A stretch of 64,000 bases of DNA from Sphingomonas brevis (lineage in GTDB: Bacteria; Pseudomonadota; Alphaproteobacteria; Sphingomonadales; Sphingomonadaceae). The stretch is from the NCBI RefSeq assembly GCF_023516505.1, contig NZ_JAMGBB010000001.1:1922001-1986000 (forward strand), read 5' to 3'. The position numbers and the translations under genes are program-made. Position 1 is the stretch's first letter. Each line of letters starts with the position of its first letter. Below the pieces are notes generated by a model, which made no database searches, had not been told where the DNA came from, and saw only the letters and a program-made list of their open reading frames with translations. Shown one piece after another: positions 34,506 through 35,396 of this stretch.

Positions 34506-34634
34506 CTAGCTGTTCTTGAAATTCTCAAGCCCTTGCTGGCCGCCCTTGTTTGACGGATTGGCCGCGATCGTCTTCGGCTTTTCCTTCTTGGGCTTGCGGG
34601 CTTCCTTGTTCTTCCTGACCTGGCCCTTGGCCAT
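34506..34634 (-). CDS. Short lysine-rich conserved protein (MAKGQ type)
   Basis: A 42-residue very basic protein starting 'MAKGQVRKNKEARKPKKEK'. Proteins beginning like this are widespread in sphingomonads and other alphaproteobacteria; their function is unknown, and nucleic-acid binding is a guess from charge. A GGAGGGAGA ribosome site lies just upstream of the ATG. It is too short for ordinary gene finders. Confidence 0.75.
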   Translation of the reverse strand: MAKGQVRKNKEARKPKKEKPKTIAANPSNKGGQQGLENFKNS

Positions 34635-34749
34635 GATGCTTCTCCCTCCGCGGCGACGATGCGCCACATGGGACTGTCATAGCCGCTGAACGCAAAGGCT
34701 CAAGAGGCCGGGGCCGTCACGCGAGTGAATCGCGTGACGCCGATCCGGT

Positions 34750-34770
34750 CCCCCGGAACAGGTCCGGGGG
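34750..34770. repeat. G/C-rich palindrome downstream of the metallothionein-like gene
   Basis: CCCCCGGA and TCCGGGGG form a perfect 8-bp inverted repeat with a 5-base loop, a motif common between sphingomonad genes. It is 83 bp past the metallothionein-like stop and has no T-run, so termination is uncertain. Confidence 0.5.
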
Positions 34771-34852
34771 CCGGTCGGCCGGCTGGCACCATCTCTTCGC
34801 GCTGCTTCGGCGGCGCTACGCGCCGGCGTCGCTGCGATCGGTGGCGCTCAGC

Positions 34853-34930
34853 TTAGCAAGCGCAGTTCTTGCAGGTGCAGGGCTTGCACTGGCAGCCGCG
34901 CTGAGCGGCGAGCGGGGTAACCGAAACCAT
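34853..34930 (-). CDS. Mini-metallothionein-like cysteine-rich peptide
   Basis: A 25-residue peptide with a perfectly regular cysteine pattern CxCxxCxCxxCxC in its last 13 residues ('CQCKPCTCKNCAC'; Cys13, 15, 18, 20, 23 and 25) and no other metal ligands. This pattern is typical of metallothioneins, which chelate zinc, cadmium, copper or mercury through thiolates. An AAGGAG ribosome site lies seven bases before the ATG. The gene is divergent from a MerR-type regulator, with a canonical MerR promoter and operator reading toward it. Metal choice is unknown. It is far below the size limit of most gene callers. Confidence 0.8.
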   Translation of the reverse strand: MVSVTPLAAQRGCQCKPCTCKNCAC

Positions 34931-34966
34931 GATGATTCTCCTTCTGTCCAAGAGCGGACAAAGGGC

Positions 34967-34997
34967 TTATGCAGTCCGTACCATGGTACGGAATCAA
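34967..34997 (-). promoter_or_regulatory. MerR-type promoter of the metallothionein-like gene
   Basis: On the minus strand, -35 TTGATT (34992-34997) and -10 GCATAA (34967-34972) are separated by 19 bp. This over-long spacer is the hallmark of MerR-activated promoters. The predicted transcript starts about 30 bases before the ATG. Confidence 0.8.
34975..34992. promoter_or_regulatory. MerR-family operator, perfect 18-bp palindrome
   Basis: 'tccgtaccatggtacgga' is a perfect dyad filling the 19-bp spacer between the -35 and -10 boxes. It closely resembles the mercury-operator pattern with GTAC half-sites separated by four bases. Confidence 0.85.
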
Positions 34998-35396
34998 GCA
35001 TTAAATCGCGATACGATCAGCGGCCTCGCCAAATCGGCGGGCGTAGGGGTCGAAACGGTGCGATATTACCAGCGGCGCGGGCTGCTCCCCGAACCGGCGC
35101 GGCCGCCGGGCGAGATTCGGCGCTACGGCGAGGCGGACGTCAAGCGGATGAGGTTCATCCGATCCGCCCAGGCGGCCGGCTTCACGCTGGCCGAGATCGG
35201 CGAGCTGATCGCGCTCGATGCATCCGACGACCGGGCGCGGGCGCGGGAACTGGCGCAAAGCCGGGTGGCCGCGATCGACGGAAAGATCGCGGAACTGCAA
35301 GAGGCGCGGGATGCACTGGCCGGACTGGCCCGGGCCTGCGCGTCCAGCCAGAAAGGCCCCTGCCCGATCCTGCGAGCTTTCGAGCGAGAGAAGTAG
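34983..35396 (+). CDS. MerR-family metal-responsive regulator
   Basis: A 137-residue protein. The N-terminal winged helix 'ISGLAKSAGVGVETVRYYQR' and 'IRRYGEADVKRMRFIRSAQA' are typical of MerR. A long dimerisation helix follows, and the C-terminus 'RACASSQKGPCPILRAFE' resembles the metal-binding end of mercury-type MerR, with two cysteines; the third cysteine of true MerR (in the helix N-terminus) is missing. So it probably senses a thiophilic metal, not certainly mercury. The best start, ATG 34983, lies inside the operator; ATG 34929 is an alternative that would overlap the divergent gene. Confidence 0.82.
   Translation: MVRNQALNRDTISGLAKSAGVGVETVRYYQRRGLLPEPARPPGEIRRYGEADVKRMRFIRSAQAAGFTLAEIGELIALDASDDRARARELAQSRVAAIDGKIAELQEARDALAGLARACASSQKGPCPILRAFEREK

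Follow-up and report, generated by a model that had tools for sequence, protein, structure and literature searches.

What does a gene of only 25 codons do, six of them for cysteine, when it stands back to back with a merR-type regulator gene in Sphingomonas brevis? The locus lies in the window, by which we mean the whole stretch of 64,000 nucleotides analysed here, and a preliminary description had read it as a metal-induced chelator under a textbook MerR promoter. We propose that it is probably a self-contained metal switch, in which a MerR-type regulator would control a thionein in miniature whose most likely metal is Cu(I)/Ag(I). The features concerned are the following.

34738-34779, minus strand, GC-rich strong hairpin 3' of the peptide stop, terminator-like, without a T-run (hairpin scan)
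34853-34930, minus strand, coding sequence of the 25-residue cysteine-rich peptide MVSVTPLAAQRGCQCKPCTCKNCAC (sequence and homologues)
34938-34943, minus strand, ribosome-binding site AAGGAG, 7 bases ahead of the ATG (sequence)
34967-34972, minus strand, -10 element GCATAA of the peptide promoter (sequence)
34975-34992, no strand, perfect 18-bp palindrome TCCGTACCATGGTACGGA, putative MerR-type operator (sequence and genome searches)
34983-35396, plus strand, merR-type regulator gene, 137 residues from an inferred ATG (open reading frame and models)
34992-34997, minus strand, -35 element TTGATT (sequence)

The peptide gene and its promoter

The minus-strand open reading frame, the AAGGAG, the promoter, the palindrome and the divergent merR gene of the preliminary description were all confirmed to the base by reading the sequence. 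The six cysteines of the peptide are arranged as C-x-C-x-x-C-x-C-x-x-C-x-C, a pattern that occurs once in the six frames of the window, compared with a mean of 0.0 in 200 order-5 Markov copies. An AAGGAG match of four to six of the six bases precedes a start in each of 27 homologues, their starts having been chosen by that same score. That this is a MerR-controlled peptide gene we regard as nearly certain, and sequence evidence bears out the gene and its recurrence as well as its operator and a shared regulon.

The half-sites of the operator presumably resemble those of mer operators. The -35 and -10 elements are separated by a spacer of 19 bp (34973-34991), with the palindrome between them; palindrome and -35 element overlap by one base (34992), which corrects the earlier description. 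A spacer of 19-20 bp with a palindrome between the two elements is given as a feature of the MerR family in PMC9909328.

Beyond the peptide stop, a stricter scan places the strongest hairpin at the window's locus 73 nt away. A fold of -20 kcal/mol or stronger starts within 12 nt after the stop at 27 of 27 peptide loci, compared with 64 of 405 stretches drawn at random from these loci; because the T-runs are weak, we call these hairpins terminator-like only. Two strong inverted repeats follow in succession 3' of the gene in the window, at 34738-34779 and at about 34727-34751, the second recognised by eye. Directly downstream of the peptide, on the minus strand at 34506-34634, lies a basic 42-codon open reading frame (MAKGQVRKNKEARKPKKEKPKTIAANPSNKGG...), for which no Pfam match was obtained. 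Its relatives are found in 25 of 61 genomes searched, every one of the same genus and some of them without the peptide, and in four of 20 regions (the window, G062, G007 and G023) it follows closely on the peptide, in the same orientation.

Recurrence of the peptide with its operator

The preliminary description had made its reading depend on the conservation of the cysteines in relatives; this was looked for and found, the six cysteines recurring among homologues for which the six-cysteine array was itself the criterion for retention. There are 28 distinct peptides in total, 25 of them found blind to the promoter and three by a palindrome search, and 18 lie within the genus, in 18 of its 71 genomes. 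The peptide is a recurring one, and its switch accompanies it in Sphingomonas relatives with small genomes.

A seven-peptide profile gave 17 matches at E <=0.01 in the 71 genus genomes, 15 of them true on reading, while the search of the order (396 genomes) gave 14, eight of them in the genus; beyond it L055-L057 proved true, and three further matches are due to chance. Scanning named genomes, which include Sphingomonas hankyongi, S. alba, S. cremea, S. daechungensis and S. horti, yielded 67 pattern stretches that came down to 14 loci (seven new, half in genomes already found), and all 14 carry the operator with zero to two mismatches. The palindrome search added L073, L154 and L200 in the genus. 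Searches of the class (385 genomes) and the phylum (398 genomes) gave no true homologue besides the window's own, and tblastn of the peptide against plasmids gave no match. Chance matches, recognised by the lack of the six-cysteine array, were L046 and L047 in the genus, L058-L060 in the order and L111-L114 in the wider searches. In many genomes no more than about 20 candidates were scored, and because the profile missed three of the 18 genus peptides the numbers of homologues are lower bounds.

The homologues measure 25-40 residues with 6-10 cysteines (L045 counted in its 34-residue form); the window's peptide has 25 residues and most relatives have 28-35, the longer members gaining cysteine modules, as in CRCNPCTCSACSCNPCTCNPCKC (L057). 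The proline of C-x-C-x-P-C is present in 15 of 15 genus profile homologues, though it was not required. Tyrosine occurs in two of 27 peptides, and phenylalanine and tryptophan are absent. In their make-up the peptides resemble metallothioneins in the broad sense: small, rich in cysteine, built of C-x-C arrays and poor in aromatics. Over 26 aligned cores, with the motif columns, pN/pS is 0.34, and it is 0.68 at the six positions that the motif does not fix, so that purifying selection is seen mainly in the array. A non-coding RNA with a chance open reading frame was also considered and is held unlikely in view of these ratios, the in-frame conservation of the array and the Shine-Dalgarno-like sites.

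The operator recurs in the same way. Its 16-bp core, at one mismatch or fewer, is found in 33 of 71 genus genomes at 42 sites, compared with one of 71 when the pattern is reversed; this genome has a single site. With zero to two mismatches, the core lies upstream of all 27 mapped peptides, its first base 137-183 bp ahead of the end of the stop codon, and the operator is equally present in 25 of the 25 distinct homologues that had been found blind to the promoter. In 22 of the 27 a divergent regulator, recognised by the motif ET[IV]R[FY]YQR, is located within about 350 bp. The five exceptions are L109 and G014, where merR is about 1 kb away with a second operator of its own; L103, where it is downstream; and G007 and G023, where the motif search found no regulator within about 6 kb and the operator is retained. 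In a 28th peptide, L200, which is absent from the 27-case distance measurements, the regulator adjoins. Since the operator is kept where merR is displaced or absent nearby, operator and peptide travel together, and the MerR-type promoter of the preliminary description is upheld for the 27 mapped cases, even those with merR elsewhere.

The regulator

The listed open reading frame of the regulator begins at 34929 and runs in frame to 35396; its start is probably at 34983, where an ATG falls within the palindrome, a second correction to the earlier description. At 34960-34985 of the window a TATGCA-like -10 stands about 10 bases ahead of this ATG, and about 18 bp further up there is a TTGATT that, by eye, is kept in several relatives. 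With the ATG inside the operator and the -10 so close before it, the message of the regulator may be leaderless.

The MerR helix-turn-helix and C-terminal models PF13411, PF09278 and PF00376 score above cut-off. The best NCBIfam model is that of mercury MerR, TIGR02051, at 118.1 bits, below its cut-off of 150.85; CueR (TIGR02044) scores 92.1 bits, below the equivalog cut-off of 147.4, and the equivalog cut-offs of ZntR and CadR are likewise missed. The best PDB chain is the mercury MerR 5CRL. With CueR and mercury MerR the regulator shares MerR domains, a long-spacer promoter and paired loop cysteines, and yet it falls under both NCBIfam cut-offs. Its loop is Cx7C as in CueR, in 91 of 91 regulators and by ungapped alignment against 6LDI, and not the Cx8C of mercury MerR, whereas the half-sites of its operator resemble those of mer.

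What deciding residue, then, would set the choice of metal? According to the literature, the loop cysteines are Cys112/Cys120 in CueR, Cys117/Cys126 in mercury MerR and Cys112/Cys119 in CadR (PMC9909328), and selectivity is held to rest on a third residue, serine for +1 and cysteine for +2 ions (PMC11591864, PMC9909328). In the region of the third ligand (Cys82 in mercury MerR), taken as the part from the GFxL motif up to the loop cysteines, a cysteine is present in none of the 91 distinct regulators, and there is no conserved serine such as Ser77 of CueR. An invariant arginine is found instead, in all 80 loops that have the most frequent length and as an all-arginine column in the 91-sequence alignment; alignments differ as to whether it replaces the serine or cysteine or whether the loop is shorter. 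Peptide-linked members cluster in the regulator tree without forming one clade, with eight changes, at least two of which are forced by well-supported branches. What survives of the "textbook MerR" promoter is therefore the mer-like DNA site; the sensor behind it lacks the third metal cysteine, and merA was found above cut-off in none of the 20 peptide genomes.

Which metal

It is very probable that the peptide serves as a thiol metal chelator, and we lean slightly towards a monovalent ion, copper or silver. Copper-named genes occur in six of 13 plasmid regions around close regulators (5000 or 4000 bases on each side). Five of the others are without an obvious metal gene, one of these being scarcely annotated; of the remaining regions, one has DUF305 only and H13 has DUF305, DUF411 and a Co/Ni exporter. 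Mer-named genes other than the regulator were seen in none of the 13, in PLSDB gene tables that are incomplete. Control stretches on eight of the 13 plasmids contain copper-named genes in none of eight cases, and one names a cadmium P-type ATPase; because these eight plasmids were picked for having metal-related genes, the fair contrast is six of 13 against none of eight. Cu(I)/Ag(I) is favoured by this contrast, by the CueR spacing of a loop without the third metal cysteine, and by the lack of mer-named genes in the 13 regions and of MerA in the 20 genomes; on the last two results we also reject the idea that the peptide is part of a mer operon. Against copper or silver stand the best NCBIfam model and PDB chain, which are those of mercury MerR and not CueR, a loop with an invariant arginine and no conserved counterpart of CueR's Ser77, the seven of 13 plasmid regions without a copper-named gene, and a glutaredoxin partner of the regulon that could equally indicate thiol stress. 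At the window's own locus, copper genes were not seen among the listed open reading frames in a scan of the list without one-by-one annotation.

The same device could serve a divalent ion, chiefly Hg(II), with a mercury-type MerR in charge and the peptide mopping up mercury. The mer-like operator and the ranking of TIGR02051 and 5CRL would suit such a device, but the score remains under the TIGR02051 cut-off, all 91 regulators have Cx7C for Cx8C and lack the third-ligand cysteine, and neither MerA in the 20 genomes nor, within the incomplete tables, further mer-named genes in the 13 plasmid regions came to light; we consider mercury unlikely.

Other targets of the operator

The 42 operator sites of the genus drive 18 peptides, 20 genes for a glutaredoxin-MauE membrane protein (one of which, L077 in G075, looks frameshifted), three other genes and one regulator alone; the three others are two histidine-rich membrane proteins, recognised by eye, and one more. 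Exact-core loci of the order number 39 (38 outside the genus, L127 inside it). Judged by motif, the gene they face is of the glutaredoxin type at 38, with a peptide preceding it at one of them, whereas the 39th, L140, has a CPSG variant on reading. One glutaredoxin-MauE partner protein matches PF00462 and PF07291. Among the 20 peptide genomes the partner is full-length in seven, split in one and not full-length in 12, some of which are drafts. This genome gave no match to the partner and, having a single operator site, shows the peptide as the only operator target found. Peptide and glutaredoxin-MauE gene occur together, each with a separate operator copy, in G014, G022, G087, G005, G091, G075 and at locus L109. 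The operator also precedes histidine-rich membrane proteins at L155 and L199 (by eye) and, with DUF4396, at L189, and these proteins are a possible third cargo of the regulon; DUF4396 is the only clear family among the genes beside the regulators of L188 and L189.

A partner of this type raises the question of whether the module answers redox or thiol stress, the MerR sensing disulfide or electrophile stress and the peptide acting as a sacrificial thiol buffer. The glutaredoxin-type genes at 20 of 42 genus sites and at 38 of 39 order loci (all save the CPSG variant) speak for this, but a dense C-x-C array nearly free of aromatics is typical of thioneins, and copper-named genes adjoin six of the 13 plasmid copies, so that we hold a thiol buffer to be rather improbable. 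Highly improbable is a cysteine-rich leader peptide (uORF), with translation-coupled sensing governing the gene behind it: the frame is short and cysteine-rich, a glutaredoxin gene directly follows the peptide in L055 and the 42-codon frame does so in the four regions named above, but that frame is found in peptide-less genomes too, most regions have no gene after the peptide, a longer downstream gene is common to two of 20 regions at most (G007 and G023; crude open reading frames of >=70 residues), and the hairpins follow the stop codon at all 27 loci.

Proposed mechanism

For the metal switch that we prefer, a MerR-family dimer would occupy the palindrome within the over-long 19-bp spacer, and the cysteine pair in its C-terminal loop would capture a soft metal ion. 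The metal-loaded regulator would kink or untwist the spacer DNA and so turn on a short transcript encoding the 25-residue peptide, whose three C-x-C pairs would enclose the ion in a thiolate cluster and retain it in the cytoplasm. That the peptide is translated, that distortion activates the promoter, that the peptide binds metal and which metal it binds are what we infer here.

Comparison with known thioneins

The peptide matches no known metallothionein family tested and looks as if it works like the fungal Cu-thioneins. No metallothionein model of Pfam or NCBIfam was matched by the peptides; the lone weak Pfam match, which one of 18 members gave to a helix-turn-helix at E 0.18, is due to chance, and a PDB profile search gave no match at E 10. 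The C-x-C-x-P-C-x-C start of the peptide may be reminiscent of SmtA. Membership of PF02069 was rejected, as none of 71 genus genomes and none of 18 peptides match the profile. SmtA/PmtA (PF02069) and MymT are described, like the peptide, as small cysteine-rich bacterial proteins, and smtA, too, is divergent from a metal-responsive regulator (PMC7387436, PMC7558416). That regulator is SmtB, in contrast to the MerR type here, and MymT at 4.9 kDa (PMC7558416) is longer than the peptide. Closer in its control is Zrd of Pseudomonas aeruginosa, which PMC12301328 gives as a previously unannotated metallothionein-like cysteine-rich frame under a MerR-family regulator, CadR; Zrd differs in its two Cys4 metal sites and its CadR operator, the peptide having a single compact C-x-C array behind a mer-like operator.

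The Cu-thioneins of Neurospora crassa and Agaricus bisporus have 26 residues and seven cysteines, according to PMC4755600, and agree with the peptide in size, in their C-x-C pairs and in having longer members made of repeated cysteine modules. Their spacing is CXC-X5-CXC-X3-CXC-X2-C, in contrast to CXC-X2-CXC-X2-CXC with proline, and the peptide, unlike them, is bacterial and MerR-controlled; the likeness is one of working, without demonstrated homology. Among the literature matches listed, as far as titles and abstract openings go, such a peptide, its MerR pairing and the glutaredoxin-MauE partner were not found.

Significance

One review of the matter counts only two bacterial metallothioneins whose biological function had been investigated as of 2020 (PMC7387436), and the 26-residue fungal metallothioneins were once held to be the shortest in all organisms (PMC4755600). 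It is possible, and we put this forward tentatively, that the peptides constitute a new family in prokaryotes, made up of minimal thioneins for Cu(I)/Ag(I) that grow by C-x-C-x-P-C-x-C repeats. They would be the portable, operator-borne cargo of a MerR clade that combines DNA reading of the mer type with a sensor for monovalent ions built on two cysteines, and an invariant arginine in place of the selectivity cysteine or serine, the peptide replacing the clade's usual glutaredoxin-MauE effector. With neither a cysteine nor a conserved serine at the place held to be decisive, the regulator offers a direct test of how MerR proteins choose their metal. If the proposal is true, the family would be about as short as the smallest fungal thioneins and far shorter than SmtA or MymT, and 25 residues with a ready-made MerR-type promoter would make a minimal model of a thionein, one that shows the modular growth of such peptides and provides a compact sensor part.
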